Assembly (NCBI RefSeq): GCF_000145215.1
Contig: NC_014392.1
Location: forward strand, 2,427,001 to 2,491,000
Direction: 5' to 3'
Source of the DNA: Caldicellulosiruptor obsidiansis OB47
GTDB lineage: Bacteria; Bacillota; Thermoanaerobacteria; Caldicellulosiruptorales; Caldicellulosiruptoraceae
Length of the DNA stretch: 64,000 nucleotides
In this document: piece by piece, positions 6,976 to 28,058 of the stretch
Layout: every line of letters begins with the position of its first letter
Numbering within the stretch: the first letter of the stretch is position 1
Program-made: the position numbers and the translations under genes
The notes under the pieces: generated by a model
What the model was told of the DNA's origin: nothing
What the model saw: the letters and a program-made list of their open reading frames with translations, nothing else
Database searches by the model: none

Positions 6976-8109
6976 GTTTGTAGCCTTCCATTTGGGGATT
7001 GAAACGATTCAAATAAAAATTTGATTTTTTAAAAAAAATCTGGTTTGTAGCCTTCCATTTGGGGATTGAAACGGTTTATCTTCAATAACCTTTTCTTGTT
7101 TTTGCTTTGTTAAGTTTGTAGCCTTCCATTTGGGGATTGAAACAAAGTTATTAAATGCTTTCCCATTAGCCCCCCACCTGTTTGTAGCCTTCCATTTGGG
7201 GATTGAAACTTAAACACCTTTCTTATATCATTGTCTATAGCAGAGTTTGTAGCCTTCCATTTGGGGATTGAAACGCTTTAACTGTGCAGGTATTATCGCT
7301 ATTGGTCTGTGTTTGTAGCCTTCCATTTGGGGATTGAAACAATTATAACATACAAGGCGAGGGAGTTTTAGATTTTGTTTGTAGCCTTCCATTTGGGGAT
7401 TGAAACTTTGCATTCAATGTGAATACCATTCAGTCCTACAACGGTTTGTAGCCTTCCATTTGGGGATTGAAACGGCTTTAGCTGTATATAATACAGGTGG
7501 CACATATAGTTTGTAGCCTTCCATTTGGGGATTGAAACAGAAGTTGTTACTACCCGGTGAGATAAGCGCTTTGTATAGTTTGTAGCCTTCCATTTGGGGA
7601 TTGAAACGAATTAAAAAACATTATAAAAGAAGTAGTGTATAATGTTTGTAGCCTTCCATTTGGGGATTGAAACTTAAGTTGTTCCAAAGTTTCTATCCCT
7701 TGTTCCTTCCAGTTTGTAGCCTTCCATTTGGGGATTGAAACGGTGCAGGCATGACCTGTACAATGTATACCGCTGCGGTTTGTAGCCTTCCATTTGGGGA
7801 TTGAAACTAGAAAGCGAGACGTTATATGACATCATCATGAAGGGTTTGTAGCCTTCCATTTGGGGATTGAAACGTCTATCATTCTGTCTTGCTGTGCTAC
7901 TAATATAATATGTTTGTAGCCTTCCCTTTGGGGATTGAAACATCAAATAAGAACACACATCAGGTTTGAGAGCACCTTCGTTTGTAGCCTCCCCTTTGGG
8001 GATTGAAACGGTAATCCCCAATCGGGATGATACCATGTTCCTTTGTAGTTTGTAGCCTTCCCTTTGGGGATTGAGGAGAGAGGAGAGCCTCCTATTTGGG
8101 GATTGAAAC
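6976..8109 (+). CRISPR. CRISPR array CR1 (about 17 repeats, 16 spacers, variant repeats)
   Basis: 30-nt repeats start with GTTTGTAGCC and end with GGATTGAAAC; spacers are about 35-38 nt. Repeats 1-14, next to the leader, carry CTTCCATTTGG. Repeat 15 (7912) has CTTCCCTTTGG. Repeat 16 (7980) has the CTCCCCTTTGG form found in every other array. Repeat 17 (8048) has CTTCCC and loses its 3' end to GAGGAGAG; a further degenerate copy ends at 8109. Long reading frames across the array are translation artefacts of the repeat. Confidence 0.97.
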
Positions 8110-8388: not shown

Positions 8389-9150
8389 TTAATCCAAAAG
8401 TTGGGTAACCAAAATAAAAGAAATATTATCACTTAGTTTTTTATTCTGAATTCTCTTTTGAAACTCCGAACAAAAGTCATCAGTAGAGAAAATTTGTGAT
8501 ATCTCATTTTCGAATTCTTCCCAGAACCCATCACTACAAATAATAAATTTGTCTTTATCAAGAATTTCTGTTTCATTTTTGTAAATTTGAATCTCTGTTT
8601 GATAGTTGTCTGCCACTATTGCAGAAGTTAAAATATGTTTTTTAGAATGTACCTTCGCTTCGTCTACAGTTATACAACCGCTTGAAACAAGTTCTTCAAC
8701 CACCGTATGGTCTTTGGTTAATTTCACTATTCTTGGGCCAAGCAATCTATATACCCTGCAGTCGCCCACGTTGAAAATGTAGAGTTTACTGTCAATAACC
8801 AAGATTCCTGCTATTGTGCATCCCATTCCAGAACTGTTTGGGCTTATACGGTTATAATTTTCTAACTCATCTCTTGCTTTTTTAATTGCATCTTCAATAG
8901 AGAGCTTTTTAGTCATTATATCTTCTTTATAGCGTTGCAAAACTTCTAAAACTATCTTTGACGCCAATTCACCTTTAGTATTTCCTCCAATACCATCTGC
9001 CACAGCAAGAAGAACACTTCTACTATCAATATTTAAACTCTCGCATTTATCCATATCTGTACTACTTATAATTTTTTCAAAAACTAACAAAGAATCTTCG
9101 TTTGTATCTCGTAAATTTCCTTTATTTGTAAAATAAATAACTCTAAACAT
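8389..9150 (-). CDS. PP2C-family Ser/Thr protein phosphatase
   Basis: 253 aa, a complete single-domain PPM/PP2C phosphatase, which removes phosphate from Ser/Thr using two Mn/Mg ions. The conserved motifs are all present: GNLRDTNEDS near the N-terminus, VADGIGG (metal-binding Asp), SGMGCTIAG, NVGDCRVYR, LTKDHT, ICSDGFWE and SDNISFI. There is no membrane segment or sensor domain. It is the last gene of the six-gene operon, 21 nt after the FHA gene, with GGAG before its ATG. Its partner is presumably the kinase encoded at the head of the same operon, with the FHA protein as phospho-reader. Residues are intact, so activity is expected. Confidence 0.9.
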   Translation of the reverse strand: MFRVIYFTNKGNLRDTNEDSLLVFEKIISSTDMDKCESLNIDSRSVLLAVADGIGGNTKGELASKIVLEVLQRYKEDIMTKKLSIEDAIKKARDELENYNRISPNSSGMGCTIAGILVIDSKLYIFNVGDCRVYRLLGPRIVKLTKDHTVVEELVSSGCITVDEAKVHSKKHILTSAIVADNYQTEIQIYKNETEILDKDKFIICSDGFWEEFENEISQIFSTDDFCSEFQKRIQNKKLSDNISFILVTQLLD

Positions 9151-9171
9151 ATTTTCAACTCCTATTCGGGA

Positions 9172-9645
9172 TTAATGTAAGTCATCTACTGTAAGCTCAA
9201 GAGACAACGAAAGTGATATCCTGTCACCTTTTTTGATTATTTCTTTGCCATTTATCCTTTTTCCATTTATATAAACTCCATTTGTGCTATTTAAGTCCTC
9301 CACATACCAGATACCTGCCTGTTTAAAAAATTTTGCATGTTTTCTTGAAACAGTCTTATAATCTTTCAAATATTCTTTCCCCTTTTCATGTCTGCCAACT
9401 ACATCGCCGCTGAAAACCTCTATAAAGAAATTTTCTCCTTTCAAAATAATTTTCGGAATTTCAATTGTTGTTTTATCATCAATATATAAATTTTTCTTTC
9501 CCGAATCAACAGTTTTTTCAACTTCTTCAACCACATACTCTTCAGTTACTGGCACATTACTTATGTCTGCCATACAATTAAAGCATATTATCTCGTCTGG
9601 AGAATTTTGTAAATTACAACTCGGACATATTTTATAACTCTTCAT
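9172..9645 (-). CDS. Zinc-ribbon plus FHA domain protein
   Basis: 157 aa. The N-terminal zinc ribbon has two CxxC pairs (CPSCNLQ and CFNCMAD, about residues 7-25). A linker and then a C-terminal FHA domain (about 70-150) follow. The FHA motifs are GRHEKGKEYLKD, SRKHAKF (S, R, H phospho-peptide contacts), STNGVYINGKRI and GDRISL. FHA domains bind phosphothreonine peptides, so this is the probable reader of the operon's kinase. The ATG overlaps the end of the radical SAM gene by 14 nt and has GAGGTG upstream, implying translational coupling. The binding partner is unknown. Confidence 0.88.
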   Translation of the reverse strand: MKSYKICPSCNLQNSPDEIICFNCMADISNVPVTEEYVVEEVEKTVDSGKKNLYIDDKTTIEIPKIILKGENFFIEVFSGDVVGRHEKGKEYLKDYKTVSRKHAKFFKQAGIWYVEDLNSTNGVYINGKRINGKEIIKKGDRISLSLSLELTVDDLH

Positions 9646-10216
9646 TTACCAACACCTCTATATCTTTTTGGTAAGGAATACCTATCATAATTATTTTATC
9701 CTTTTGTTCAACAATCTGAAGAATCTTTTCTTTCCTCTTTTTTATCCATGGTAAATAATCTTTGCTCAAAGACTCATTAAAAAGGAAAAAACGCTGATTT
9801 TCTGAACCCTTCCAGATTAATTCACTCTCAAGCCCTTTTATAAAAGGAGAATCTACCATTGCATCTATTAGTTTTAATAAATCTTTATCTTTACTTAAAA
9901 GGTATTCATATGTATATCCTGTATAAACAAGAATGTCATCAAAAAACTCTCTTATAGAATTCAAAAGAACTTTCAACGCCTCATTCTGATCAAAAGGCTC
10001 ACCACCGCTTATTGTTAGTCTTTTGCAGCCAAAACTTTTAAGGATATCAGCAACTTCTTCTATCTTAATTGCTTTGCTTTTGTCAAATTCCCATGTATGC
10101 ACAGACATGCATCCCTTACATCTTATCGAGCATCCCTGTAACCAAATACCAACTCTTTTTCCAGGTCCAAGTGTGTAAACCGGATAATGTATAATACTAA
10201 CTAACAACTCGTCCAT
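9632..10216 (-). CDS. Small radical SAM protein, activase-like
   Basis: 194 aa from the ATG at 10216, chosen over a GTG seven codons upstream because AGGTGGGA sits at the right distance. The radical SAM cluster CX3CX2C is at C29, C33 and C36 (LQGCSIRCKGCM). GIWLQGC before it and TISGGEPFDQ after it are the pattern of the NrdG/PflA activating-enzyme branch with a minimal barrel. No glycyl radical enzyme is nearby, so the substrate is unlikely to be a classical NrdD or Pfl; it may modify another protein of this operon (inference). It overlaps the AAA+ gene by 20 nt and the FHA gene by 14 nt. Confidence 0.8.
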   Translation of the reverse strand: MDELLVSIIHYPVYTLGPGKRVGIWLQGCSIRCKGCMSVHTWEFDKSKAIKIEEVADILKSFGCKRLTISGGEPFDQNEALKVLLNSIREFFDDILVYTGYTYEYLLSKDKDLLKLIDAMVDSPFIKGLESELIWKGSENQRFFLFNESLSKDYLPWIKKRKEKILQIVEQKDKIIMIGIPYQKDIEVLVNEEL

Positions 10217-12023
10217 CAAGTTCCCACCTATCTTCACGTTTAAGCAGTCTGTCTACTCTAACAATGCTTCCTTCCTGGGGAAATAACTTAAACAGAAGTT
10301 CAGCTAAAGGATTTATAAATAAAAGTTCAAGTTTGTTGCCTATACCCCTACCCCCCATAGACAGATCTTTTGTAACTTCTTCGAAGATTATCTGTTGGAC
10401 ATTATCTGAGATTTCAAGTTTTATCTTTTTGTCTTCCTCAAGTTTTATCTTAACGTTATTTAGCATCTTATTCAGTATTTTTTTCACATTTTCATTGCGT
10501 ATAAAATCAAATACAATGATATTTTCCCCTATACGATTTAGAATTTCAGGTCTTGCAATTTTGAAAGTAAAATATTCCTTTATAGCTTCAGTCAAAATCT
10601 TTTCAATTTCTTCATAACTCATTTCTGGCAAGACACGCTGTATTTTTCTTCCATCCAAAGTCATCTCGTAAACCCCAAGATTAGATGTAAATATTATTAA
10701 GCTCTCAGAAAAGTATACAGTCTCACCCCTTCCTGACGTAAGTCTGCCATCATCAAGTATTTGTAAGAAAATATCAAGTATTTTTGGATGAGCCTTTTCT
10801 ATTTCATCAAAAAGTATTACTGAAAAAGGATTTTGTTTTACAGCATTAGTCAATTCTCCCCCTACATCATAGCCCACATAGCCAGGAGGTGCACCTATGA
10901 GTCTTTGGTCAGAATGTTCATGGGAAAACTCTGACATATCAAACCTTATATAATGATGTTCACTTCCAAATATTAGTTCTGTTATGGCTTTTGCAAGTTC
11001 TGTCTTGCCCACGCCAGTTGGTCCTGCAAAGAATAAAACACCCTTCGGTCTGTTAGAATACCTTGAAAACTGTGAACCTGACAGATTAAAAAAAGCTCTT
11101 CTTAGTATAGTAGCAGCTTGTTTTACTGCTTTTTCCTGTCCCATAACTCTGCTGTTTAAAAACTCTTCTGCATTATTCAATCTGTCTTTATCTATTTTTG
11201 CCCATGGATTTTCGCTTACACCTACTTTGTATCTTCTTGTCGCTTCTCCAATCTCTCTTACACTCAAATTCTCTCTTTTTGACAAAACTACAATAGAAAG
11301 CATTTCTCTTGCAAACATGCCAGACGTCAGATTTACAAAGTCTTTTATTACTTCTTCTTTTTTTACTTCGTTCAAACTTGCCCACTCATCCATTCGTGGT
11401 AAGAGAGACTGGGCTATCCATCTTCTTATCTCAAAATCAGGTTTTGGAATAGGAATTGTTCTTATTCTCGGATTTTCCACTGTATACCACGGTGGCAAAT
11501 CATTTTCTTTTTCTACAAGGAAAATTATTGGATTAAAAGAAGGTGGATTGCCTTTTTGGTTTATGTTTATAGATAGTTTGAAAGTGTGGTAAAGAAAATC
11601 TGGTAAATCTCTGCTACAAGAAATTTCCGGTAATCTTGATGAAAAATTAATTAAAACAGCTGTCTTTTCATCTCCCACAAGAAATTTTTCTATGGTTTCA
11701 TATGCATCAAGTAAAAACACAATTTTGTCGCTAATTTTTCTTCCAGTGAGGTTTGTAAATATTTCTTCATCTCCTTTTAATAGTCTGAAGCCCTCAAGAG
11801 GTATATATTCTATTACAGTCTTGTAATTATCATAGGTAGTAAGCAAACTTGCAATAAACTGTGTAATATTCATGGGTATATATTTATCACCCTGGGGAAA
11901 TGGGAAAAGGTCGTAAATGTTTCCAAAAAGAATAAACTGAGACGTTATTGAACAAAACCTTAAAATCTCTTTTGCAAATTTGGGTACACCCTGAATTTTT
12001 TCAGGTACTATATTGTTTCCCAT
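10197..12023 (-). CDS. ClpB-like AAA+ ATPase with degenerate first AAA module
   Basis: 608 aa. The C-terminal half is a Clp/Hsp100 D2-type AAA+ domain: Walker A GPTGVGKT at 334-341, pore-loop motif GAPPGYVGY (about 377-385), Walker B ILFDE at 403-407, sensor 1 IFTSNLG and sensor 2 GGRGIGN. The N-terminal half (about 20-265) looks like a second AAA module without Walker A; it keeps hydrophobic strands such as IVFLLDAYE and NPIIFLVE. There is no Clp N-domain and no ClpP-binding loop that I can identify. The likely role is unfolding or remodelling a specific target. The ATG lies 2 nt after the coiled-coil gene, and the 3' end overlaps the radical SAM start. Confidence 0.85.
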   Translation of the reverse strand: MGNNIVPEKIQGVPKFAKEILRFCSITSQFILFGNIYDLFPFPQGDKYIPMNITQFIASLLTTYDNYKTVIEYIPLEGFRLLKGDEEIFTNLTGRKISDKIVFLLDAYETIEKFLVGDEKTAVLINFSSRLPEISCSRDLPDFLYHTFKLSININQKGNPPSFNPIIFLVEKENDLPPWYTVENPRIRTIPIPKPDFEIRRWIAQSLLPRMDEWASLNEVKKEEVIKDFVNLTSGMFAREMLSIVVLSKRENLSVREIGEATRRYKVGVSENPWAKIDKDRLNNAEEFLNSRVMGQEKAVKQAATILRRAFFNLSGSQFSRYSNRPKGVLFFAGPTGVGKTELAKAITELIFGSEHHYIRFDMSEFSHEHSDQRLIGAPPGYVGYDVGGELTNAVKQNPFSVILFDEIEKAHPKILDIFLQILDDGRLTSGRGETVYFSESLIIFTSNLGVYEMTLDGRKIQRVLPEMSYEEIEKILTEAIKEYFTFKIARPEILNRIGENIIVFDFIRNENVKKILNKMLNNVKIKLEEDKKIKLEISDNVQQIIFEEVTKDLSMGGRGIGNKLELLFINPLAELLFKLFPQEGSIVRVDRLLKREDRWELDGRVVS

Positions 12024-12025
12024 AC

Positions 12026-13570
12026 CTAAACACTCCTCTGCCTCTGATGCATATCAATTTTCTTGATATCCTGTTGCTTTTTTGTAGTTTTTGTTTTTTC
12101 TTTTGTTATATAATAAAACCTTGTTTCAGGTTCTATCCTTATTTTATCTTCAATCATTATTCCTTCCTGACTTAAAAGCTGTTTAATTTTGTCATAATCG
12201 GAACACCACTTTTTAGCTATAGCTATATCCTTATGTTTCTCATATTCACTCAAATTTTTTTCATCTTCAACATATCTTACAAACATAATTTTTAGTCCAT
12301 CATCTTCATATTTTAACCTCAACATATAATCTTCTCCAAAAGGAGTTTTTATTTCTACTATTTTGCCCATTGACAATTCTTCCATTAAATCATCCTTGAC
12401 TACAGAATAACCTAACTCCATAACTTTGTTAATAAACTTTTCCAATGAAGCCCTTCTTCTTTCCTGAGCCATAATTTGCCTTTTTTTGTTGAGCAAATTT
12501 TTTATAAAGTTATCAACCTCTTCTTTATTCAATATACTCATCTTCATTAGTTTATTAAACTCTGTTAGCATCCCTGTTTCTTCTGCAAGTGTTTCAAATA
12601 CTTTTAAATCATTCTTTAAAACTTCAGTTTGAATATACAATCTTCTTGTGTTTATATAATTCATTTTAAGGTCCTCTAAAATCAGTCTTATTCTCTGAAT
12701 ATCATCTGTTTCAGTTGCCTCTATAACCAACTGCCTCTTTTCTTCAGCAAGTTCAGGATTTATAGTTTTTAACTTGTCAAATACAGCCTCAATCTTTTCT
12801 AAAATCCTTTGTTTTTCTATAACCTCACTAATTTCTTTTTCAGTAATTCTTTCTCTTTCCACTTGCTCTTTTATTTTTATAGTTTTTTGTTCCAGAAGTT
12901 TTTGTTTTATCTTTCTTACTATACCATAATACTCACTTGGTATCTCTTGTAAATATTTGTTTAGTTTTTCAATAGTTGAAGGTGTATCAAATGTGCATTT
13001 TTCTATATCGTATAGAATTTTGGCATAGTGCTGCATTGTTCTGTAAAACTTAATATTTCTCAGATCCTCAGGAAACATATTTAAATACAGTTCAATAGTC
13101 TCTCTATTCGCAGCAGGGCTTTTAAATTCTTTCTCTAAATTTTCAAATAATTCTATAATTTTCTGTATCTTTTTTCCGGTTTCTTGGACCCCCTCCGGTA
13201 ATGCATTTAAAAAAGTTTTAAGTGTTTGGATATCTAAATTATCTGTTAGTTCTGTTTTAACTAAAATAATATACTCCTTCGTTTTTCGGATAATATCTTG
13301 AATTTTTGCTATTTGGGAATCAACCCACTGAGTATGGCTTTCACTTGACAAAATTTCTAACGTATACCTTTCCAAAAAATCTTTTTCGTGTCTCTCAAGA
13401 TTTTCTATTAAAGAATAATCTAAAAATGTAGATTTTGTATTTTTTAACATTTCTCTTACATGGCTTATAGAGTTATCTATTTGCTCCTTGAAAAACTTTT
13501 TGTTATCTCTGAAAATCTCATCTAAATTCTTCCCGGTGTCAAAGTGCCAAACATAAGTAAAACTACTCAT
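12026..13570 (-). CDS. Coiled-coil protein of the kinase/AAA+ operon, unknown function
   Basis: 514 aa, highly charged and mostly helical. Heptad-rich stretches cover roughly residues 30-170 and 210-370; examples are EQVERERITEKEISEVIEK and the DKLKTINPELAEEKRQL region. A compact C-terminal domain (about 375-500) has beta-strand character, including VEIKTPFGEDYMLRLKY. I do not recognise a family. It precedes the AAA+ gene by 2 nt, so the two are probably co-translated, and a scaffold or adaptor role for the AAA+ ring is a reasonable guess only. GAGG sits before the ATG. Confidence 0.75.
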   Translation of the reverse strand: MSSFTYVWHFDTGKNLDEIFRDNKKFFKEQIDNSISHVREMLKNTKSTFLDYSLIENLERHEKDFLERYTLEILSSESHTQWVDSQIAKIQDIIRKTKEYIILVKTELTDNLDIQTLKTFLNALPEGVQETGKKIQKIIELFENLEKEFKSPAANRETIELYLNMFPEDLRNIKFYRTMQHYAKILYDIEKCTFDTPSTIEKLNKYLQEIPSEYYGIVRKIKQKLLEQKTIKIKEQVERERITEKEISEVIEKQRILEKIEAVFDKLKTINPELAEEKRQLVIEATETDDIQRIRLILEDLKMNYINTRRLYIQTEVLKNDLKVFETLAEETGMLTEFNKLMKMSILNKEEVDNFIKNLLNKKRQIMAQERRRASLEKFINKVMELGYSVVKDDLMEELSMGKIVEIKTPFGEDYMLRLKYEDDGLKIMFVRYVEDEKNLSEYEKHKDIAIAKKWCSDYDKIKQLLSQEGIMIEDKIRIEPETRFYYITKEKTKTTKKQQDIKKIDMHQRQRSV

Positions 13571-13710
13571 GGTATCATCCTCTTAATTTTTATTTATGAA
13601 TATTTATATTGAACATTCCACAACTAAAGCGCTTCATTCCCATGCATTGCCTTTTTAAGGCTATAACCTGCAATGTCCACAAATTCAAATAGTGTGCAGA
13701 CATTTTTTCA

Positions 13711-15816
13711 TCAATCGTCATAAGGTCTTAGAATCTTTGATAAAACTGAAATAATAGATAATGTAAAATAAAAATATACAGAGTTAATTAAAATTTCGTT
13801 CGCTTTTCCTTTAATGAAATACTCATAAGAAGAAAAATATGAAAAATAGAATATAATGGCACAGAAATATAAAATTGATAATCCTGCAATTTCAAGCTTT
13901 TTAAACTTCGAATATGCTATTTTCCATTTCGAAGATTTTTTAAAGCATTTTCTTAATACCAAATAATATGATATAGCAATAGCTAATAATAAGCATATGT
14001 AATACTTTGTGTTACTATCAAAGTATTCTTTGGACAGTTTGCAAAAATACTGATCTGTTGTAAAATATATTAGCAACCTCGTGGCTGCTAATCCCCCAAG
14101 ATAAAATATTACCATCTTACACATATATTTTAACATTTTTTTAGTAGCATTTATCAATTTTCGTCTACGAATTGCTTGATGTAATTTATAACCTTTTATT
14201 ATCCAATTAATTGCTTCAGATACTGAAAATCCTGCTGTACACCAATCAACTATCTCTTTGGCAATTCTTTCTAAAACCTTTTCATCTTTTGCTCCTTTGC
14301 TAACCATTTCTTCAACTTCGTCAATACTAAATCCTAAATTTGTTAATTTTGTAGCTAGCATTGGCTTAACTTTTATTATTTTCCAACGGATAGCTTCAGT
14401 TAAGCTAACATTATTTCTTCTCCATTCCTCAGCTTCGTCAGCATCAAAGCCTTTTTCAGCCCAATTCTTTGCTTCATCAACAGCAAATCCATTTCTATTC
14501 CATTTTCGAGCTTCAGTTTCTGAAAAACCTTTCATAATATAATGAAAAATACCCTCTTCTACAAAATCAAATATTTTATTTTTGTCTATTCCTTTTTCTG
14601 ACAGTTCAAGTATATCAAAAGCATTGATCCCCTTTTTCAGCCATTCATATGCATTTTTAGGACTAAGTCCAAGATTGTCAAATATACTGGCTTCCTGCGG
14701 CTTAAAAGCATAATTATACCATTCTAAAGCTATATTGCCTTTCCTGAATCCATTTAAGGCCCATTCCTTCATGTCTTTTACAGAAAAGCCAGCTTCCCAA
14801 AAAGTTTTTACCTCTTGTGGACTGAGGTTTATTTCAATACCTGTTTTTGCCCATTCAGAATCAGAAGAAAAACCAACTTTATCCCATTCATCATTATCAT
14901 ATTTTTTATCCGCTTCATTATACTCTTCATAGAACACAGGTATATTTTCTACGTTATTTAACCACTGTTTTACCTGTTCATATCCCCATCTTTTTTTATA
15001 ATTCCGCGTAAGAAGTCCTTTTAATAAAATTTTAAATCTTTTAGGAATATCTTCTGGGATTTGTACACCCTGGGTAACAAGAGTATTTATAATAACAGCT
15101 TCTGATAAGCCAGCAAAGGGATTCTTGCCTTTTAATAGTTCATATATTATTATCCCTAAATGCCACCAATCAATTTCTTTGCCAAAATAACCTGAAACTT
15201 CTTCCGGAGCCATATAAGAATATGTCCCCTTTAACGCAGTGACAACCTTCGACATCTCCTCAGACATAGCAGAAGATATTCCAAAATCAATTAGCACAAG
15301 GTCTAAAGATTCTAAATCTCTTATAAGAACATTAGAGGGTTTCAAGTCTCTGTGAACAATTCCTCTTTCGTGCAGTGCTTTAATAGCTTCTGCAATTTCT
15401 TTAACTACAATATCAACTTTGCCTTTTACTTTTTCTAAATTATCTTTTAAACTGCCATATTGAATATACTCCATTAACTCAAAATATCTGCCGGTTTCTT
15501 CATCTTTACCTACTTCAAAAATTGTTACAACATGTTCTTTGAGTTCAAAAGAAATCTTTTTTAATCTTTCTAACACTTCAATTTTAGGAGTAATACCCTT
15601 TCTGTATAGCTTTAAAAACATCCTCTTGCCACTTTCTTCTACAATATAAGCATCGCATTCTCCACCTTTCGCCGGAAGTTCCTCTACTATTTTGCAGTTT
15701 CTGAATATTTTTAAAGACAATCTATCTTTTTTATTTAAAATATCTTCCTCTCTAATAGTGATCTCTTGTATGTTTTCTTCATCCCACCAGCTCTCTACTA
15801 TTGTTCTTTCATCCAT
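13711..15816 (-). CDS. Membrane Ser/Thr protein kinase with W-x3-GF repeats
   Basis: 701 aa. The Hanks-type kinase domain is at about 40-287: a Gly-rich loop near 49-56, Lys69 (MFLKLY), the catalytic loop HRDLKPSN at 155-162, D177-F-G, APE at 203-205 and D216 of the F helix. All catalytic residues are intact. Residues about 310-550 hold degenerate repeats of the form W-x3-GF-x4-EA-x2-W with a period near 13; the clearest are at W439, W452 and W465, and at W525 and W538. Four hydrophobic segments follow (about 565-585, 603-622, 642-662, 677-694), so the kinase is probably cytoplasmic and anchored by its C-terminus. First gene of the operon, with AAGGAAGGG before the ATG. Confidence 0.9.
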   Translation of the reverse strand: MDERTIVESWWDEENIQEITIREEDILNKKDRLSLKIFRNCKIVEELPAKGGECDAYIVEESGKRMFLKLYRKGITPKIEVLERLKKISFELKEHVVTIFEVGKDEETGRYFELMEYIQYGSLKDNLEKVKGKVDIVVKEIAEAIKALHERGIVHRDLKPSNVLIRDLESLDLVLIDFGISSAMSEEMSKVVTALKGTYSYMAPEEVSGYFGKEIDWWHLGIIIYELLKGKNPFAGLSEAVIINTLVTQGVQIPEDIPKRFKILLKGLLTRNYKKRWGYEQVKQWLNNVENIPVFYEEYNEADKKYDNDEWDKVGFSSDSEWAKTGIEINLSPQEVKTFWEAGFSVKDMKEWALNGFRKGNIALEWYNYAFKPQEASIFDNLGLSPKNAYEWLKKGINAFDILELSEKGIDKNKIFDFVEEGIFHYIMKGFSETEARKWNRNGFAVDEAKNWAEKGFDADEAEEWRRNNVSLTEAIRWKIIKVKPMLATKLTNLGFSIDEVEEMVSKGAKDEKVLERIAKEIVDWCTAGFSVSEAINWIIKGYKLHQAIRRRKLINATKKMLKYMCKMVIFYLGGLAATRLLIYFTTDQYFCKLSKEYFDSNTKYYICLLLAIAISYYLVLRKCFKKSSKWKIAYSKFKKLEIAGLSILYFCAIIFYFSYFSSYEYFIKGKANEILINSVYFYFTLSIISVLSKILRPYDD

Positions 15817-15910
15817 AATTAATCCCTTCCTTATATTTTTACGCTCTGCAGAAACAGTTTTTAAATAAAAGCTTCTCTACCAATATACTTTTATACCTAT
15901 TTTATATTAA

Positions 15911-15939
15911 ATTATACCAATTTTATTTTTAATATACAA
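15911..15939 (-). promoter_or_regulatory. Promoter of the kinase/AAA+/radical SAM operon
   Basis: On the minus strand TTGTAT (15934-15939) and TATAAT (15911-15916) are 17 nt apart, and TGG before TATAAT gives an extended -10. The transcript would start near 15904, leaving a 5' leader of about 88 nt. I see no clear operator. The rest of 15817-16230 is AT-rich with no gene. Confidence 0.65.
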
Positions 15940-16232
15940 TCAAATTTGGTCCTTATGTTAATTTAGATTTCCAATAATTTTGAATTCTTAGTGTCTATAA
16001 TTCTTAGCTGTTTTCATTTGTTTTTATAAAGGTTTAAATATATTTTTCTGTAAATATAATACAGCATTTTGTACAATTGTGCTATTCTTCAATCATTATT
16101 ATTCTAAACATTCCCAATAAAACTTTCTTAACTTTATAGTTCTATTTTGACGTTTACTGTCATTTATGTTATGTTATTTTATTCCATTATGCTATGGGTA
16201 CCTGCATAACTTTATGTACTCTGCATTTTTGT

Positions 16233-16407: not shown

Positions 16408-16502
16408 GTTTGTAGCCTCCCCTTTGGGGATTGAAACTCTTTAGCTGCTGCTGTTTGAGACATTTGACCTGAAAGTTCGTAGCCTCCCCTTTGGGGATTG
16501 AG
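16408..16502 (+). CRISPR. Mini-array CR2 (two repeats, one spacer)
   Basis: A perfect CTCCCC-type repeat lies at 16408-16437, then a 37-nt spacer (16438-16474). A second repeat begins at 16475 with a TTCG change and ends in GGATTGAGG instead of GGATTGAAAC. The terminal decay resembles the ends of the larger arrays. An Rpn gene follows 150 nt downstream. Confidence 0.85.
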
Positions 16503-16653
16503 GTATGGAAGGAACTTATCCTTGGGGGATAGAAAAAGAGATGGTAAGCACTGGTTGGAATCTAAAATAAGCAATATATCTTTTGCTTTCATAGTGTGGT
16601 ATAATAAAAGTGTACAGAAAAGTATGCAACATATAAGAAAAAGGAGAAAAACT

Positions 16654-17619
16654 GTGTGCAAAAAATTGCCACCAAAAGAGCACGATACAACATTTAAGTT
16701 TTTGTTTTCAGACAAAGATGAAATACTTTTGCTGGTAAAAGATATACTTCACTATACTTGGGCAGACAGTATTGAAGAAGATTCTATTGAACTTGTCAAA
16801 ACAAACTATGTTACTCATGAGTTTTCACAGGTTGAGGCTGATGTAATTGCAAAAGCAAAACTAAAAGAAAGAGAAGTTTATTTTTATATTCTGATTGAGA
16901 ACCAGTCAACCGTTAAAAAAGAAATGCAGCAAAAGATTTTAAAGTACATGATAAGTATATGGGCTGATGAGATAAGAAAAAATGTTCAGATTCTACCAGC
17001 AATTATTCCTATTGTTGTATACAATGGAATAGGTGAAAGATGGAGTATATCGACCAATCTTATGGAAGCGTTTGACATATTCAAGGATGATGTGTTCAGA
17101 TACAAAGTAGTTGACATAATAGAACTTGATGTAAAAGAACTTTTGGAAATAAAAGAGGATGTGCTGCTCCCTGTAGTGTTTTATCTTGAGCAGGTAAGAG
17201 AAGATAGAAGTGAGCTTATAAGAAGGCTTTTAGAGGTTGAAGAAAACTTAAAAAATCTAAGTAAAAAGAATGTAGATAGATTTTTGGAATGGTCGTATCG
17301 CATTATACGACCAAGGCTTTCTGAAGAACAAAAGTCAGAGTATGATACAGTTGCAAGAAGACTGTCAGAAGGGGGTGTAAATGCCATGGGTGAGTTTATA
17401 TCAAATGTTGCAAGACTTTTAGATGAAGCAAAAACAAAAGACTTTATGGCTGGGAAACTCGAAGGAAAACTTGAAGGGAAACTTGAAGGTAAAATCGAAG
17501 CCACAATAGAGTTTGCGAAAAGATTAATACAAAAGGGATTTAGCGATGAAGAGGTTGCTGAACTTACAGAACTTCAGATTGAAAAGGTTAAAGAGTTGAG
17601 AAAATCCATGGTAAATTGA
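16654..17619 (+). CDS. Rpn-family recombination-promoting nuclease
   Basis: 321 aa from the GTG at 16654, which has AAGGAG 7 nt upstream; an extended -10 (TGTGGTATAAT, 16595-16605) lies before it, so the longer frame from 16498 is unlikely. The PD-(D/E)XK nuclease core is seen as VEADVIAKAK then FYILIENQS, the Asp and ExQ pattern of Rpn/YhgA-like transposase_31 proteins. The C-terminus has four GKLE units encoded by 12-bp direct repeats (17452-17499) and a helix-turn-helix-like end (GFSDEEVAELTELQIEKVKELR). Family members promote RecA-independent recombination through DNA cleavage. It lies directly after a mini-array, as do two other copies here. A terminator follows. Confidence 0.85.
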   Translation: MCKKLPPKEHDTTFKFLFSDKDEILLLVKDILHYTWADSIEEDSIELVKTNYVTHEFSQVEADVIAKAKLKEREVYFYILIENQSTVKKEMQQKILKYMISIWADEIRKNVQILPAIIPIVVYNGIGERWSISTNLMEAFDIFKDDVFRYKVVDIIELDVKELLEIKEDVLLPVVFYLEQVREDRSELIRRLLEVEENLKNLSKKNVDRFLEWSYRIIRPRLSEEQKSEYDTVARRLSEGGVNAMGEFISNVARLLDEAKTKDFMAGKLEGKLEGKLEGKIEATIEFAKRLIQKGFSDEEVAELTELQIEKVKELRKSMVN

Positions 17620-17646
17620 GAAATGTTTGAACATAAAATAGAAAGT

Positions 17647-17685
17647 AGGGCTGTCTAAAAAGATAATTGGACAGCTCTTTCTTCC
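17647..17685 (+). terminator. Intrinsic terminator after the Rpn gene
   Basis: AGGGCTGTC (17647-17655) pairs with GACAGCTCT (17670-17678), with G-U pairs, followed by TTCTTCC. Confidence 0.6.
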
Positions 17686-22153: not shown

Positions 22154-23708
22154 GTTTGTAGCCTCCCCTTTGGGGATTGAAACTCTTTACTTTTTTCACT
22201 TCTTAACGCTGCTTGTCTGTTTGTAGCCTCCCCTTTGGGGATTGAAACTTTATTTAAAAATCTGGAATTTTCGCACCCGAAAAAGTTTGTAGCCTCCCCT
22301 TTGGGGATTGAAACGGTAATGAAAGAAAACCTTATTTCCCACTCCTGCAAGTTTGTAGCCTCCCCTTTGGGGATTGAAACAGTCATATTCTTCGTTTGAG
22401 AATTCATTACCGTATACGTTTGTAGCCTCCCCTTTGGGGATTGAAACCCCAATTGATCAGGTGTAATTACACCACTTTTTAAAACGTTTGTAGCCTCCCC
22501 TTTGGGGATTGAAACTTCATCGCATCTACAGTCTGCTTGCAATGTAGTTCTGTGTTTGTAGCCTCCCCTTTGGGGATTGAAACTAGTAAGCACCTCCTTT
22601 ATTTAAAAATCTGGAATTTTGTTTGTAGCCTCCCCTTTGGGGATTGAAACGCTTAAATTGTTCTTGCTCTAAATCTGTTCTTATTGTGTTTGTAGCCTCC
22701 CCTTTGGGGATTGAAACAATACAAACGATGCTACATAAACTTGTAAATTTCGTGGGTTTGTAGCCTCCCCTTTGGGGATTGAAACTATAGGAGATGTGCA
22801 TTTAGGGAGTAAATATTTTGAGTTTGTAGCCTCCCCTTTGGGGATTGAAACTATCTCTATTTCTTCCTTCTCTTTCTCATCTTTTATGTTTGTAGCCTCC
22901 CCTTTGGGGATTGAAACGTTTTTAGATACGGATGATTATAGCAAATTAAAGGTTTGTAGCCTCCCCTTTGGGGATTGAAACTCGTTTTCGTAAACGACTT
23001 TAGCTTGAATATCAAGCGTTTGTAGCCTCCCCTTTGGGGATTGAAACATGCCAAGCTTCACAATATCCTTTGCAGCTCTGCAGGTTTGTAGCCTCCCCTT
23101 TGGGGATTGAAACGCTAATGTCCTTACACCGATATGCAGCCTTTCAGCTGTTTGTAGCCTCCCCTTTGGGGATTGAAACAGCGAAACTTCAAAGAAGTTC
23201 GCAAGTTTGATTTTAGTTTGTAGCCTCCCCTTTGGGGATTGAAACTCGTTTTCGTAAACGACTTTAGCTTGAATATCAAGCGTTTGTAGCCTCCCCTTTG
23301 GGGATTGAAACTTTAGTCCTACCATGATAACAATAAGCAGCATATAGTTTGTAGCCTCCCCTTTGGGGATTGAAACCCGATAAGCAATAAACACACGGTC
23401 TTGGCTAAAGCATTGTTTGTAGCCTCCCCTTTGGGGATTGAAACAGCTTTGCTGTGATGATTGCAGTTTGAGAAAAGTCAAGTTTGTAGCCTCCCCTTTG
23501 GGGATTGAAACAAGCTGTTGTTCGTGAAATAAATCTCATTGCTAAACAGGTTTGTAGCCTCCCCTTTGGGGATTGAAACAATTCACCTTCATCTGCCATG
23601 ACCTTTACCTTCATGTTTGTAGCCTCCCCTTTGGGGATTTAGGAGAGGGAAAGCCTGCACATTGGGGATTGGTAAGAGGAGTGGAGTTTTCTCTTTGGGG
23701 ATTGAAAC
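22154..23708 (+). CRISPR. CRISPR array CR3 (about 23 repeats, 22 spacers)
   Basis: CTCCCC-type 30-nt repeats from 22154 to 23615, with spacers of about 35-37 nt. Spacer 13 (22982-23017) and spacer 17 (23246-23281) are identical (TCGTTTTCGTAAACGAC...). Spacers 2 and 7 share TTTATTTAAAAATCTGG and a few more bases. The last repeat ends GGGGATTTAGGAGAGGG, and two more decayed repeat-like blocks run to a final GGGGATTGAAAC at 23697-23708. Confidence 0.97.
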
Positions 23709-23797
23709 GCAAGATGAATAAAATGATAATTAGGAAAATAGTAGACATTCCAGAAGCAGCAAAAAATATACCTGTTGAACTGATAGTCAGAATACCT

Positions 23798-23944
23798 TTA
23801 AATAATCTGAACTGCTACAAGCTCGCCTTCTTTTATCTCATTAATAGCTTTTTTTGTATAATCAAACCAGATTTCTGCTTTGTATCTTGAATAAACATCG
23901 CTGTCATATTTCATCATGCGTCCGACAATCTCTGTATTGAACAT
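23798..23944 (-). pseudogene. Fragment resembling the N-terminus of a HerA-type helicase
   Basis: 48 codons starting MFNTEIVGRMMKYDSDV, preceded by GGAGTG, and stopping at 23798. An opening with IVGR and later EIKEGELVAV resembles the HAS-barrel N-terminus of HerA helicases. Its position just after a NurA-like fragment supports the pair, but the match is from memory of family pattern only. The reading frame is cut short near CR3. Confidence 0.35.
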
Positions 23945-23948
23945 TTTT

Positions 23949-24311
23949 TCACTCCTCATCATCAAACTTGAGACTATCTCGGAACTTTCTAAAAGTCATA
24001 TTAAGCGGATCTTTTTTATAAAGCTGTTGACTGCTCTGGATTATACCTTTTGCAAATTTAAGCAGTGTTTTAGTTCCTCTGTCTGCCTTGTGAAGCGGTT
24101 CTGGATATCCAATCACTTCAGGAAAGTGATTTCTTGTAAGAATATCTAAAAAGTATATATTCATCGCCTGCCCCCAGTTGATAATATTCTTATCAACATG
24201 AAGAAAAGGTGATATCCTTCCAAGCTTGCTGTTATCTACTAGCACACTCTCTAAAAACTGTTTGTCAAGGGCAGGATGCAAAAGCCTTTCGACAAATAGA
24301 TGAAAAATCCT
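23949..24311 (-). pseudogene. 3' fragment resembling NurA nuclease
   Basis: The frame is open from 24311 with no start codon context, so the 5' part is missing. It reads HLFVERLLHPALDKQ, then LGRISPFLHVDKN, IYFLDILTRNHFPEV and TKTLLKFAKGI. The pattern resembles the C-terminal part of NurA nucleases, which pair with HerA. The next fragment starts 4 nt downstream, as expected for a nurA-herA pair. Truncation at both ends makes this debris rather than a working gene. Confidence 0.35.
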
Positions 24312-24348
24312 TTATTTAAATATCATAAAGAATTACTTTTAGACAAAA

Positions 24349-24388
24349 AAAGGCACTGATATCAGGTTTATTTACCATCAGTGCCTTT
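24349..24388. terminator. Intrinsic terminator-like hairpin
   Basis: AAAGGCACTGAT (24349-24360) is perfectly complementary to ATCAGTGCCTTT (24377-24388). It lies between two gene fragments. Confidence 0.6.
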
Positions 24389-24412
24389 ATATTTATCTAA
24401 TTTAACTTGAAA

Positions 24413-24612
24413 TTACTCTTCAATTACATCTTCTCCATCATCTTCATCCAAGCCTTCAGGATAAATGTCCTCAAGGTCTGCATAATAACATATAAGAAAG
24501 TTAAGAACATCGACAGAAGATTTTTGGGAGTTTATTGGAAAAAGTATAAAAGAAAGCGATGTTCTACCTTGTTTATTTTCAAAAGTATCTTTTGATCCAA
24601 GCAGCCTATATC
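24413..24612 (-). pseudogene. C-terminal fragment of an unknown acidic-tailed protein
   Basis: A minus-strand frame without a start reads RYRLLGSKDTFENKQGR, later FFPIN-type strands, and an acidic tail GLDEDDGEDVIEE before the stop at 24413. It is cut off upstream by AT-rich sequence. No family recognised. Confidence 0.3.
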
Positions 24613-24754
24613 TTAAAAAAACCTTTTATAACCCCCAGTTATGAATTTTAACATAAAATATAAAATCCCCAATGAAATAAATATAATTTGATTTTCACAC
24701 ATTAAAACAGTTCAAATATTATGCGAAAAGGCAAGGAATTCATTTCAAATTTTA

Positions 24755-26065
24755 TTAATTCTCACTTCTCCTTTTCAACATCTTTTCAAATAAATTCATT
24801 GCTGAATTTAATAATAATTTGAATTCCTCCACATTTTCTAAGTAGTTCTGATTGCCGCGTGGTGATGAACCATGCACTGCAGCATTCCTTAGATATTCCA
24901 ATTCTTCAATTGTTCTTGCCTCGTCTTGTTCTTTGATTAGTTTGTTTGAATCTGATTTAAATACAACATTTTTCATTTCCAATTTTAGTTTTTTCCTTGC
25001 TTCCTCGCGTGCATCATAACCCATATTATCTTTTATCTTATACACATCTGCAAAAAGTACAATTATTGCTTCATAAAGAAGAATCAAGGCTTTAAGATAT
25101 TGCCTTCTTTCATAGAAAAACTGCGACCTTTTGTACATCCTCTGAAAAAGTTTTTCCTGTCTGTTCATCTCAGAAAACTCTTTGTACATTATCTCAACTA
25201 TTTCTTTTTCAAAAGAATGATCAACCATTTTTTGTTTGTCTTCAAGTCCTTTTATTATCTCTTCAATTTCTCTTCGCGGCTGGCGGTTCATCTCAAGCTT
25301 GAAATAAGTCTTTTCTCTGTCGCCAAGACCTATTTGCTCAAGCAGCGGTACAAAATAACCTGAGTTTTGGAATGTCGCCATAGATTCTATTAATCTGACA
25401 AGCTTGTCAATGAAAGGTATCTCAATAACTGGAGATTGCCCATCCTCAATCCCTGAAAAATAGTCTCGCATATCATGTGCACCATAGAATATTCTTATGC
25501 TGTTTATCTTTCTCAAATACTTCAAAAGCATTATACCATATGAAAAAACTACAGGAATGTTCCTAAATGCATGCGTCATATCAAAGATTACGTTGTACTC
25601 ACCATCTTTATCAAGCTCTTCTAAAAGTATATCAATACCTCTGCCAAGCTCAAGCGGCTTTATTTTGTAAAACTTCAGCTGTGGTACGTACTTTGTTAAA
25701 GTATTCTGCCATGCTGAAAGTGTATTGTCTTGAATACCTTTCTTTTCTTCTTCATATACTTTTAAGCACATCGCAGTTATATCTTCTGAGTTTTGTACAT
25801 CATGAGGTAATATCTGGTAAAGCTCTGACCATGCTGACTGGTCAGTACCAATCAAGATAAACTTGTCAATTTGCATATTCTCTACTTCATTAAGATATTC
25901 GTAAAGTGCAATTCCAAAAAAAGCTGTTCTTGTGGCTATGTACTTTTTACTCTTGTCAGGATTGAAAACATACTCAGTTTGTTCATACCCCACTGTTTGG
26001 TCTTTTTTTAACCGACCTTTGCCTATAACTGAAATTAGAATATTTACGGTTTTATTTTTACTCAA
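24755..26065 (-). CDS. csx1: Csx1-type CARF-HEPN ribonuclease (TM1812 family)
   Basis: 436 aa. The N-terminal CARF domain (about 1-200) begins TVNILISVIGKGRL and contains VIFDMTHAFRNIPVV, the signature of the TM1812/Csx1 group; this domain binds cyclic oligoadenylate made by Cas10. The C-terminal helical HEPN domain carries RNAAVH at R393-H398, the Rx4H RNase site. It is the last gene of the III-A operon in place of csm6. The TTG start has AGGGGG about 10 nt upstream. Expected role: non-specific RNA degradation during a type III response. Motifs intact. Confidence 0.88.
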   Translation of the reverse strand: MSKNKTVNILISVIGKGRLKKDQTVGYEQTEYVFNPDKSKKYIATRTAFFGIALYEYLNEVENMQIDKFILIGTDQSAWSELYQILPHDVQNSEDITAMCLKVYEEEKKGIQDNTLSAWQNTLTKYVPQLKFYKIKPLELGRGIDILLEELDKDGEYNVIFDMTHAFRNIPVVFSYGIMLLKYLRKINSIRIFYGAHDMRDYFSGIEDGQSPVIEIPFIDKLVRLIESMATFQNSGYFVPLLEQIGLGDREKTYFKLEMNRQPRREIEEIIKGLEDKQKMVDHSFEKEIVEIMYKEFSEMNRQEKLFQRMYKRSQFFYERRQYLKALILLYEAIIVLFADVYKIKDNMGYDAREEARKKLKLEMKNVVFKSDSNKLIKEQDEARTIEELEYLRNAAVHGSSPRGNQNYLENVEEFKLLLNSAMNLFEKMLKRRSEN

Positions 26066-26250
26066 CCCAAAAACCCCCTTTTTACTTCAAAAACGTTTTT
26101 TCATATATTTCTATATATATAAATATGTAATCTTTTGCAAAAAATCTGAGACTGTCTAAAATAATCAATAAAAAATTTTGTAGAAAACTTGAGATTGAGC
26201 CCGAAAGATCTGCTTGGAAATTGTTTATGGATATTCTGATTATATTATAT

Positions 26251-26853
26251 CTATCTTATATGAAACATCTGACAAAACATTTCCAAAAGTTCTTTTGATG
26301 CAAAAATTTCAATTTTGCCAAAATATTCTATTCTACCGTCAATAACATGCTGCTTTTTTAAATCTTTGGTTATTAAAAAGAAGAACCTCTGGTCTTCAGG
26401 ATATTTGCCAAATCTCTTGTAGTAGATGTCAAGAAGCTGTTGTCGAAGAGTTTCGGAAAAAATCTCTGGTTCCTTTTCATATTCTATGCACCTTCCTTCT
26501 TTTTGAGCATATACACCGCTGAGCAAAGTTCCTTTTGATTTTACCTCCACTTTCCTGGATGAAATACTCTTTAAACAGATTCCTTTAAATAAGCTGTTCA
26601 AGACTTCATAAATTTTAAATATATTTTGAGTAACAAGCTCAACAAAAGGCGTTGCAAGGTATATTCTGAAATTCTCAAATACCCAAACACCATCTTCTAC
26701 TTCTCTTTTGTTTCTGGTTCTCACAGTCGTTATTGTGAACAGTTCTGTAGAAAGTAGCTTTCTTATTACATGAAAAAGTTCATTATAATAAGAGGATGGA
26801 AGAAAAACTCCATCCTCTTTTGCAAAAAAATTGAAAACAAAATAATGCGCCAT
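26251..26853 (-). CDS. cas6: Cas6-like crRNA endonuclease, lacking the Gly-rich loop
   Basis: 200 aa. Cas6 cuts pre-crRNA in the repeat. The fold pattern fits: an N-terminal RAMP half with YYNELFHVIRKLL (H28 in the usual catalytic-His helix), FRIYLATPFVELV, and a second half with SETLRQQLLDIYYKRFGK and YFGKIEIFASKELLEMF. Typical Cas6 proteins then have a Gly-rich loop and a GFG ending; here the chain stops at CQMFHIR. The remnant at 35250 ends the same way, so the short end is a lineage trait and not a recent truncation. It is the only cas6 candidate near either cas operon. It sits 35 nt downstream of csm5. Confidence 0.6.
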   Translation of the reverse strand: MAHYFVFNFFAKEDGVFLPSSYYNELFHVIRKLLSTELFTITTVRTRNKREVEDGVWVFENFRIYLATPFVELVTQNIFKIYEVLNSLFKGICLKSISSRKVEVKSKGTLLSGVYAQKEGRCIEYEKEPEIFSETLRQQLLDIYYKRFGKYPEDQRFFFLITKDLKKQHVIDGRIEYFGKIEIFASKELLEMFCQMFHIR

Positions 26854-26888
26854 ACTCTACACAACCTTTAAATATTTTTAAGTATTTC

Positions 26889-28058
26889 TTAACCTATTGT
26901 CACCTTTATCCAGCCGGGGATTGTTGCAATCTCGCCATTTTTGAAGATAATTCTTCTTGTTTTTGGAAAAAGTTCAGGATAAATTTTTGAGCTACTATCA
27001 ACAACTTTTAGTTTTGAAAAGCTCTCTTTTTTAAAATACATTCCAACTGTCTTTGAACAATACCCTGTCGAAAATCCTAATTGAATCAAAAACTGATTTG
27101 GAGCAAGTTTTTTCAAAATGTCCATTAACTTTTCATATTCTTTAACAATTTGTATTAGTTTATAATTTCTATAAAACTCTATCTCTTTCGATATATACCT
27201 TTCTGTTGCACTATTTATTACCTTTGTCAAGAATTCTACACTGTCTTTGTAGCCGCTAACTCCATCAAATTTGTCTTTCAAACCAGATGTTACTGCACTG
27301 CCAAAAACAAATTTATCTTCAATCTTCATTGTGCCTTTTAAAGAAGTTTTTGGACTAATCCCTTCTGCAACAATTGAAAGACCACTTTGTGGGTCATCAA
27401 AATTGCCCTGTCTGTGGTACCATTTGACTTTGCCATCGCAGATATTCATTACCTTTATCTCATAGCCAAACATTTTTTCATATGACACAAAATCAGTATC
27501 GCTTATCTGAAGGAACTTAAAAGGTGAAAAATAAGGCTGTGAAAAAATGCTCTCCTCTGGCTTATCATCAACCTCTTTGGGGTCAATTTTATTTCTTGGA
27601 TTTTTTTCTTTTAAATTTTTTTCATATGCAAAGTCAAGAGCCTCTTCATATTTTTTGAGCAAAGGATCTTTTAACGCCTTTGTAATAAACGACCTCACCG
27701 CACCTTTTAAAGACGAACCAGGAATATATGCTCTCCCTGCACTTTTTATAAACGCTACAACCTCATTTTGTAAATTCTTTACACCATCTAATTTTATCCT
27801 GTACCTCGTGCACCTTTCAATATCAATTGCATACTTTTCTATAACATCACTCAATTTAAAGCCTTTTGGATTTGTCTCAAGTGCCTTTGTGATTGTATCA
27901 ATCAAACCTTCTTTGGTAAAACTCATCTCGAACAGCTTGTCAAAATTGATGACCCTTAAAAAATCGCCTTCTTTTATAAACTCAAAGCTTTGGAGTTTAT
28001 CCTGCCCACCTATCACAACCGGGGTTAAAACCTCAACTTCATATATTCTGCTCCCCAA
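26889..28058 (-). CDS. csm5: Csm5, type III-A RAMP subunit
   Basis: 389 aa. Csm5 caps the 3' end of the crRNA backbone in the Csm complex. The start YEVEVLTPVVIGGQDKL and the loop YIPGSSLKGAVRSFI (RAMP Gly-rich region) are typical, as is the late QLGFSTGYCSKTVGM segment. The start is a TTG at 28058, with GGGGGTGAG upstream, overlapping the end of csm4 by 20 nt; no better start lies downstream. Translational coupling with csm4 is likely. Confidence 0.9.
   Translation of the reverse strand: MGSRIYEVEVLTPVVIGGQDKLQSFEFIKEGDFLRVINFDKLFEMSFTKEGLIDTITKALETNPKGFKLSDVIEKYAIDIERCTRYRIKLDGVKNLQNEVVAFIKSAGRAYIPGSSLKGAVRSFITKALKDPLLKKYEEALDFAYEKNLKEKNPRNKIDPKEVDDKPEESIFSQPYFSPFKFLQISDTDFVSYEKMFGYEIKVMNICDGKVKWYHRQGNFDDPQSGLSIVAEGISPKTSLKGTMKIEDKFVFGSAVTSGLKDKFDGVSGYKDSVEFLTKVINSATERYISKEIEFYRNYKLIQIVKEYEKLMDILKKLAPNQFLIQLGFSTGYCSKTVGMYFKKESFSKLKVVDSSSKIYPELFPKTRRIIFKNGEIATIPGWIKVTIG

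Follow-up and report, generated by a model that had tools for sequence, protein, structure and literature searches.

A CRISPR-flanked operon of Caldicellulosiruptor obsidiansis joins Ser/Thr phospho-signalling to an HSP100-type ATPase and a radical SAM protein: a candidate modular conflict system

The stretch of DNA analysed here, termed the window throughout, comprises 64,000 nucleotides of the Caldicellulosiruptor obsidiansis OB47 genome (contig NC_014392.1, positions 2,427,001 to 2,491,000) and carries an operon of six genes, all on the minus strand and extending from 15816 down to 8389. They encode, in this order, a Ser/Thr protein kinase (STK), a coiled-coil protein (CC), an AAA+ ATPase, a radical SAM protein (rSAM), a zinc-ribbon/FHA protein and a PP2C-type phosphatase. 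The gene set, which we refer to as the cassette, is a real and widespread unit, yet it is rare and patchily distributed over about a dozen bacterial phyla. We see an even chance that the operon belongs to an undescribed conflict system, mobile and modular and most likely directed against phages or other elements, of which it would be the version with complete phospho-signalling. The operon lies at 2.43 Mb in a genome of 2.53 Mb, and its genes are as follows:

13711-15816, minus strand: Ser/Thr protein kinase, 701 amino acids (Pkinase PF00069, 2.4e-37), with C-terminal segments resembling transmembrane helices
12026-13570, minus strand: coiled-coil/helical protein with a small C-terminal alpha/beta domain, 514 amino acids, no Pfam family
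10197-12023, minus strand: HSP100-type AAA+ protein with a degenerate first module (D1) and a ClpB-like second module (D2), without N- or M-domain, 608 amino acids (AAA_2, 1.9e-48)
9632-10216, minus strand: minimal NrdG-like radical SAM protein with a 4Fe-4S single cluster domain (Fer4_12 PF13353, 7.4e-31; CX3CX2C at residues 29/33/36)
9172-9645, minus strand: zinc-ribbon and FHA protein (FHA PF00498, 2e-16)
8389-9150, minus strand: PP2C-type Ser/Thr phosphatase (PP2C_2 PF13672, 8.7e-13)

Open reading frames and family scans agree with the original prediction, made from the sequence alone, in the coordinates, strand and families of all six genes. The STK and CC genes are separated by 140 nt and the CC and AAA+ genes by 2 nt; the AAA+ and rSAM genes overlap by 20 nt, the rSAM and FHA genes by 14 nt, and a gap of 21 nt precedes the PP2C gene. 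The rSAM gene starts with an ATG at 10216, with an alternative GTG possible at 10237. Three to four transmembrane-like stretches within residues 603-693 bear out the earlier designation of the kinase as a membrane protein. In the family scan, the AAA+ protein also matched the ClpB D2-small family and the radical SAM protein Radical_SAM PF04055, while the CC protein gave no match in Pfam. None of the six proteins reaches the cut-off of a named equivalog family when compared with the models for ClpB, ClpV, NrdG and Stp1 (153 against a cut-off of 230 bits in the case of Stp1), and the PP2C match to NF033484 (7e-45) likewise stays below cut-off.

Relatives were searched with the N-terminal half of the AAA+ protein, and the 84,980 GTDB species genomes scanned contain at least 572 loci encoding them. 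Eighty loci were retrieved from twelve phylum-level groups as titled, some of them from metagenome bins. Linkage was counted in 88 non-duplicate loci, with a partner scored when it was located within 8 kb and on the same strand. The most frequent partner of the AAA+ gene is the one for the radical SAM protein (60 of 88), followed by those for FHA (56/88), CC (51/88), PP2C (48/88) and STK (44/88), and all six genes occur together in 31 of the loci. These counts are minima because many contigs are short. Gene order elsewhere varies (CC-FHA-rSAM-AAA+-PP2C-STK, CC-AAA+-rSAM-FHA-PP2C-STK or AAA+-PP2C-STK-CC-FHA-rSAM), and the trees of the cassette genes agree with each other (pairwise distance r 0.61-0.92, Mantel p<=0.001), an agreement to which shared species history contributes. 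Taken together, the shuffled order, the retained linkage and the concordant trees are strong comparative evidence that the genes probably function jointly. Chance clustering is ruled out by linkage and tree agreement, the same families recurring together in distant genomes. The expectation that the set would be conserved beyond this species thus held, with partners found linked across the 88 loci of the synteny survey.

Four of twelve genomes of the genus contain the CC gene. Among 398 genomes of the host phylum, seven from outside the genus encode relatives reaching into the N-terminal module; the figures are 7/299 for Lachnospiraceae and 7/398 for Pseudomonadota, and seven carrier genomes that were searched again hold one copy each. 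In about thirteen of 43 long loci, mostly from rumen-type Clostridia, the AAA+ gene has no detected partner nearby. Two such cases, both gammaproteobacterial, have an rSAM relative at another genomic location, which in one of them it shares with FHA, PP2C and STK, so that the set is split. Of six other genomes with a lone AAA+ gene, three contain a weaker rSAM relative and three contain none. The lone-AAA+ loci of rumen Clostridia (L078, L081, L092, L095, L098, L102 and related ones) also hold a gene for a protein of about 223 amino acids of no assigned family. Note that two nearly identical cassettes, L117 and L104, are filed as Muribaculaceae and Blautia, respectively, and stem from one study series; this is probably a binning error and not a transfer.

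The AAA+ protein consists of two modules:

11214-11990, minus strand: degenerate D1 (residues ~12-270) without Walker A motif, aligning with the first module of ClpC/ClpB
10200-11201, minus strand: D2 (residues ~275-608) with Walker A (GPTGVGKT), pore loop (GYVG), sensor 1, arginine finger and sensor 2 (GGRG)

In the predicted model (mean pLDDT 80), residues 12-608 align to the two-module body of ClpC/ClpB with Z ~27; the overall root-mean-square deviation is large, as expected for two hinged modules. Two stacked AAA+ modules together with Walker A and B, sensor 1, arginine finger and pore loop in D2 place the protein in the HSP100 (ClpA/B/C) superfamily. None of the 88 relatives has a D1 Walker A motif (GxxxxGK[ST]) in its N-terminal half, and all of them retain intact Walker A and B motifs in D2, in full agreement with the dead first module described originally. 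The GYVG pore loop is conserved in 85/88 and sensor 1 and the arginine finger in 87/88. The ClpP-docking tripeptide, a feature of ClpA, ClpC and ClpX, is missing from the corresponding D2 loop in 87/88 relatives. The loss of the D1 Walker A motif, the retention of the D2 motifs and the missing tripeptide make it most likely that the protein is a threading ATPase in which one of the two rings acts as a motor, the other being passive, and that it is not a partner of ClpP. In five relatives (L047, L048, L049, L051, L053) a zinc-ribbon-like insert occupies the site of the ClpP-docking loop, which suggests a different docking partner. The cassette protein thus shares the two-module fold and the D2 motifs with the ClpB/ClpC unfoldases and differs from them in its dead D1, in the lack of N- and M-domains and in its ClpP loop. 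It is not a ClpB disaggregase (TIGR03346, 275 against 1232 bits), as this would have two active modules.

The HSP100 architecture with its threading pore loops, the transmembrane-like segments of the kinase and the clade with lone AAA+ genes would also be compatible with a stress-responsive, signalled system for protein quality control or disaggregation, i.e., a regulated ClpB relative without a role in defence. We regard this as unlikely. Other ClpB/ClpC-like proteins are encoded in the same genome, the cassette occurs rarely and patchily even in the genus itself, and the radical SAM partner, the carriage on plasmids and the fusions to helicase-nuclease proteins described further below fit poorly with general proteostasis.

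The radical SAM protein is closest to the NrdG and PflA activases, with which it shares the fold family, the CX3CX2C motif and a GSxNQ motif. Its matches to PF04055/PF13353 and the CX3CX2C and GGE/DP motifs, each conserved in 58 of 60 relatives, assign it to the radical SAM superfamily. It differs from the activases in that it stays below the NrdG cut-off and has the AAA+ protein instead of a glycyl-radical enzyme as its partner. An identity as NrdG, the activase of class III ribonucleotide reductase, was rejected (TIGR02491, 100.9 against 126.1 bits; NrdD not near the operon), and the same holds true for prokaryotic viperins (pVip) and viperin-like small-molecule antivirals (NF038283, 16.5 against 180 bits; pVip, 22 bits). 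In three related loci, BspA-type LRR_5 genes are situated between the rSAM and AAA+ genes (L087:8899-9984, L091:7829-8929, L094:8891-9985).

The kinship with NrdG and PflA raises the alternative that the cassette maintains a radical or Fe-S enzyme such as anaerobic ribonucleotide reductase, where the AAA+ protein would open the enzyme and the NrdG-like protein would re-install the radical. Many carriers are anaerobes, and the genome does encode NrdD. This glycyl-radical enzyme is, however, encoded at genome position 581256, at a great distance from the operon, and another activase-like protein, L131 (NrdG2-like by eye), has its gene at 354726. A Gly_radical domain (PF01228) was not found in the genome, nor was a glycyl-radical gene present among the operons scanned. 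The original statement that the operon lacks a glycyl-radical gene therefore stands and extends to the operons scanned, with the qualification that NrdD is encoded elsewhere in the genome. Furthermore, the cassette occurs on plasmids of Polaromonas, Acinetobacter, Photobacterium and Rhizobium, which are aerobic or facultative organisms, and neither its patchy distribution nor its helicase-nuclease partners would be expected of such a maintenance function, which we consider decidedly unlikely.

For the CC protein, the predicted model (pLDDT 79) is mostly helical with strands at 405-432. Foldseek did not find any match for it at E<=0.001. A second structure comparison pointed to helical bundles and, for residues 370-474, weakly to KA1 domains (Z ~7), a match that is not relied on. 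The N-terminus of the protein often reads MSGPK, exactly so in 19 of 51 relatives from Clostridia and Rhizobium (e.g., L079:7444, L093:7463, L271:18730), and one may speculate that it is a docking or modification site. In the signalling proteins, CxxC is conserved in 55/56 FHA relatives and the SDG motif in 48/48 PP2C relatives.

Comparison of the loci revealed that the cassette is modular. Plasmids of Moellerella, Photobacterium, Polaromonas and Acinetobacter carry a helicase-PIN-CC-AAA+-rSAM arrangement without STK, FHA and PP2C, and the same is true for a locus in Bacillota (L046). In total, helicase, PIN, CC, AAA+ and rSAM genes are combined in L046, L268, L269, L270 and L272. The helicases of these PIN variants are MkoA-like (~269-346 bits for those scanned) and SMUBP2/UPF1-like. 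The Moellerella plasmid is conjugative, its cassette adjoins genes for an integrase and ArdA, and the core did not match E. coli at the DNA level; the cassette was also found on a Rhizobium plasmid. Further radical SAM genes, some of them SPASM-type, reside beside the PIN variant in three unrelated genomes (L046:12221-14106, L269:1-1514, L272:12712-14694).

A different kind of helicase is associated with the kinase. In nine Clostridia loci, a protein of the DUF4011-helicase-MTES_1575/Vsr-like-DUF3320 type is encoded upstream and directly adjoins STK; in L093 this helicase-nuclease gene lies 3 nt upstream of the kinase gene and scores 1231 bits with PDC-S37 and 527 bits with Hhe. An Aristaeella element with integrases shows the same neighbourhood of helicase-nuclease and kinase as the Clostridia loci. 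In the proteobacterial loci L271, L274, L284 and L285 (and partly in L283), the STK family and the helicase-nuclease are fused in a single protein of 2,086-2,366 amino acids. The gene for the fusion adjoins AAA+ and, in all but L284, rSAM, and a CC-like gene follows in L271. An apparent FHA match in the Rhizobium kinase-helicase fusion covers the zinc-ribbon part only and was discarded. Fusion and adjacency in distant phyla indicate that the helicase-nuclease proteins are likely partners of the cassette, with CC, AAA+ and rSAM as its probable common core. Two kinds of additions to this core exist, namely the STK/FHA/PP2C module and a helicase plus nuclease. The phospho-module is frequent but replaceable because the plasmid variants do without it. 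The six-gene unit proposed originally is thus supported, with its core revised to these three genes; that a helicase-nuclease protein recurs as a partner, in Proteobacteria as a fusion with the kinase, lay outside the view of that proposal. No helicase is present in the window operon. In Pseudomonas aeruginosa, a core DUF4011 gene beside a radical SAM gene flanks the defence hotspot cDHS1, possibly a distant relation (PMC10250203).

Several characterised systems share components with the cassette. Threonine phosphorylation in type VI secretion involves the joint action of PpkA, PppA, Fha and ClpV, i.e., a kinase, a PP2C, an FHA reader and an HSP100 protein (PMC5995506). With these four activities co-occurring in the cassette, a documented precedent at hand and the ClpV model scoring 3.7e-64 against the AAA+ protein, the operon could be taken for a module that controls a secretion or contractile apparatus. 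We nonetheless judge this to be very unlikely, the least probable of the explanations weighed here. The sheath protein VipB (PF05943) is absent from the genome, whereas the positive control was matched in E. coli, and the AAA+ protein is clearly not ClpV/TssH (TIGR03345, 217 against a cut-off of 885 bits). Secretion genes were not found among the neighbours scanned, and the plasmid variants retain AAA+ and rSAM without kinase, FHA and PP2C. The cassette's most constant partner is the radical SAM protein, and we know of no radical SAM gene in type VI secretion systems.

Of the systems that we found, the vWA-MoxR/FtsH ternary conflict systems come nearest; they include an AAA+ ATPase and a radical SAM domain, with a peptide effector as its possible substrate (Kaur et al. 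2020, PMC7159879). The cassette likewise combines an AAA+ ATPase with a radical SAM protein. While the ternary systems are defined by vWA and MoxR/FtsH, no Pfam match to vWA was obtained for any of the six operon genes, and the ATPase is a two-module HSP100 protein. The TerY-P triad consists of the TerY vWA protein, a PP2C and a zinc-ribbon kinase; kinase, PP2C and a zinc ribbon occur in the cassette as well, but the window operon lacks a TerY vWA gene. Relations to Mokosh and to the Hhe/PDC-S37 candidates are of another kind, as cassette-linked helicases match MkoA with 295-346 bits or PDC-S37/Hhe with up to 1231 bits, and kinase-helicase fusions occur. To our knowledge, neither the Mokosh nor the Hhe/PDC-S37 entries include an AAA+ unfoldase, a radical SAM or a CC gene, and most cassettes, that in the window included, have no helicase. 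Mokosh itself was rejected since the MkoA match of the window kinase is limited to the kinase domain and the operon is devoid of a helicase, and MADS since mad6 (NF047741) reaches 85 instead of 460 bits and the operon contains no other convincing mad gene. Thus, in accordance with the earlier claim that the set fits no characterised secretion or stress cassette, no match to a known set was found. As far as we could find, no described system has an HSP100 unfoldase and a radical SAM enzyme as its common core, and the cassette is distant from every kind tested, which is no proof of priority. A description of the gene combination was not found in the open-access literature, with subscription papers and preprints mostly outside coverage; PMC10853773 and PMC10250203 do not describe the cassette.

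The genomic surroundings point to mobility. In the genus, the operon is a discrete block of ~7.4 kb among CRISPR arrays. DNA similarity (~82% identity) starts at 8395 and ends at 15832-15940, and both flanks differ. In genome G003 the block abuts relatives of the type III CRISPR genes of the window. Genome G005 has no CC gene. Following the same PBP gene, its first match of appreciable length corresponds to window positions 16885-17667, so the stretch of the operon is unmatched there. As originally noted, CRISPR elements are located on both sides of the operon:

6976-8077, minus strand: CRISPR array with 17 repeats just past the 3' end of the operon (repeat scan; two repeats reach RF01315)
16408-16504, minus strand: CRISPR remnant with two repeats just upstream of the operon (RF and repeat scans)

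Beyond these flanking elements, the window contains many CRISPR arrays of one repeat type (22154-39676, 50566-51791 and 59476-59904), between which YhgA-like transposase genes are found; type III genes (~24755-32820) and a second Cas set (~40055-48081) were recognised by eye.

A defence context, which had been suggested from the CRISPR loci, was also encountered elsewhere. When 110 non-core neighbours from 47 loci were compared with 110 random Bacillota proteins using PADLOC models at 1e-20, about nine of the neighbours were matched as opposed to two of the random proteins (one-sided Fisher p ~0.03; the exact protein count was deduced from family counts). The matches comprise CARF-HEPN, PDC-S37/Hhe, SduA, mad3, SspH/mad8, a type IV restriction endonuclease, PbeA, Cas12f-like and LmuB-like proteins. 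MkoA-like helicases accompany the PIN variants, and the L086 cassette is immediately followed by a complete gene for PglZ (BREX). A 1592-amino-acid FtsK/SpoIIIE-like protein with an SspH-like match is encoded just downstream of the cassette kinase in L106 (16144-20922).

Several findings weigh against a conflict system. The defence enrichment stems from a single sample and is graded as modest because the protein count was deduced and at least one counted match is a neighbour of type III CRISPR in this genus. In most loci the operon itself does not include a nuclease, and the linked helicase-nuclease families are themselves partly mere candidate defence families. In the clade from rumen Clostridia, the lone AAA+ gene sits beside CotH/DUF4956/VTC/CapA-like genes (named by eye), which has a housekeeping-like look. 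Searches of viral contigs and phage records gave no full-length relative, the phage records yielding only ClpA/ClpB-like halves. A phage-borne system was rejected in its own right, as the matches in 80 viral loci were confined to the query region around the start of D2 and none of these loci had at least two convincing families. Occurrence on plasmids beside integrases, ArdA and transposases and the movement of the block among CRISPR arrays would also suit a system serving the element that carries it, be it in stability, inter-element competition or entry exclusion, and not host immunity. Many carriers, however, have the cassette on the chromosome without obvious mobility genes, and as a similar mechanism would be expected, this explanation, quite unlikely in our view, differs mainly in the beneficiary.

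If the cassette is indeed a conflict system, a possible mode of action can be tentatively outlined, although we would not call it probable. We infer the function of the cassette, the substrate of its radical chemistry and its role in defence from the features described above. The core would combine a two-tier HSP100 unfoldase with the coiled-coil protein as its adaptor and with a radical SAM enzyme of the activase type. The kinase may sense a cue and phosphorylate a component, whereupon the zinc-ribbon/FHA protein would read the mark and the PP2C would erase it; the domains are evident, while order and targets are conjectural. The phospho-mark could recruit or license the AAA+ protein, whose dead D1 would form a collar and whose D2 would thread a protein by means of its GYVG pore loops. 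Its constant neighbourhood suggests that CC either delivers the client or is the client. Judging from its family, the radical SAM enzyme would irreversibly modify the client held open by the AAA+ protein, much as NrdG/PflA-type activases act on an exposed segment. Output might then be provided by a nucleic-acid effector where one is present, either the helicase-nuclease fused to or adjoining the kinase or the pair of helicase and PIN. In C. obsidiansis the operon contains no such effector; a neighbouring system or the product of an unlinked gene could take this role, or the client might itself be the effector. A documented precedent for the proposed output side is Hachiman, a nuclease-helicase pair whose helicase acts as the sensor and sets the nuclease free (PMC12278908). 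The cassette would then constitute a new class of bacterial immune machine: a protein opened by the HSP100 unfoldase under phospho-control would pass to the activase-type radical SAM enzyme and be irreversibly marked or activated there, and the response would fall to interchangeable helicase-nuclease modules.

If this were true, bacterial conflict would make use of radical chemistry that acts on a protein opened by mechanical force and is under the control of Ser/Thr phosphorylation. The natural part-versions, i.e., core with helicase and PIN, the six-gene signalling form and the kinase-helicase fusion, make the roles of the modules testable by gene removal. The findings also provide a context for PDC-S37/Hhe-like and MkoA-like helicases, some of which travel with this core.

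A further element of the window is a c-di-GMP-I-GGC riboswitch (61905-61994), which lies upstream of 60856-61839, a gene for a probably secreted protein.

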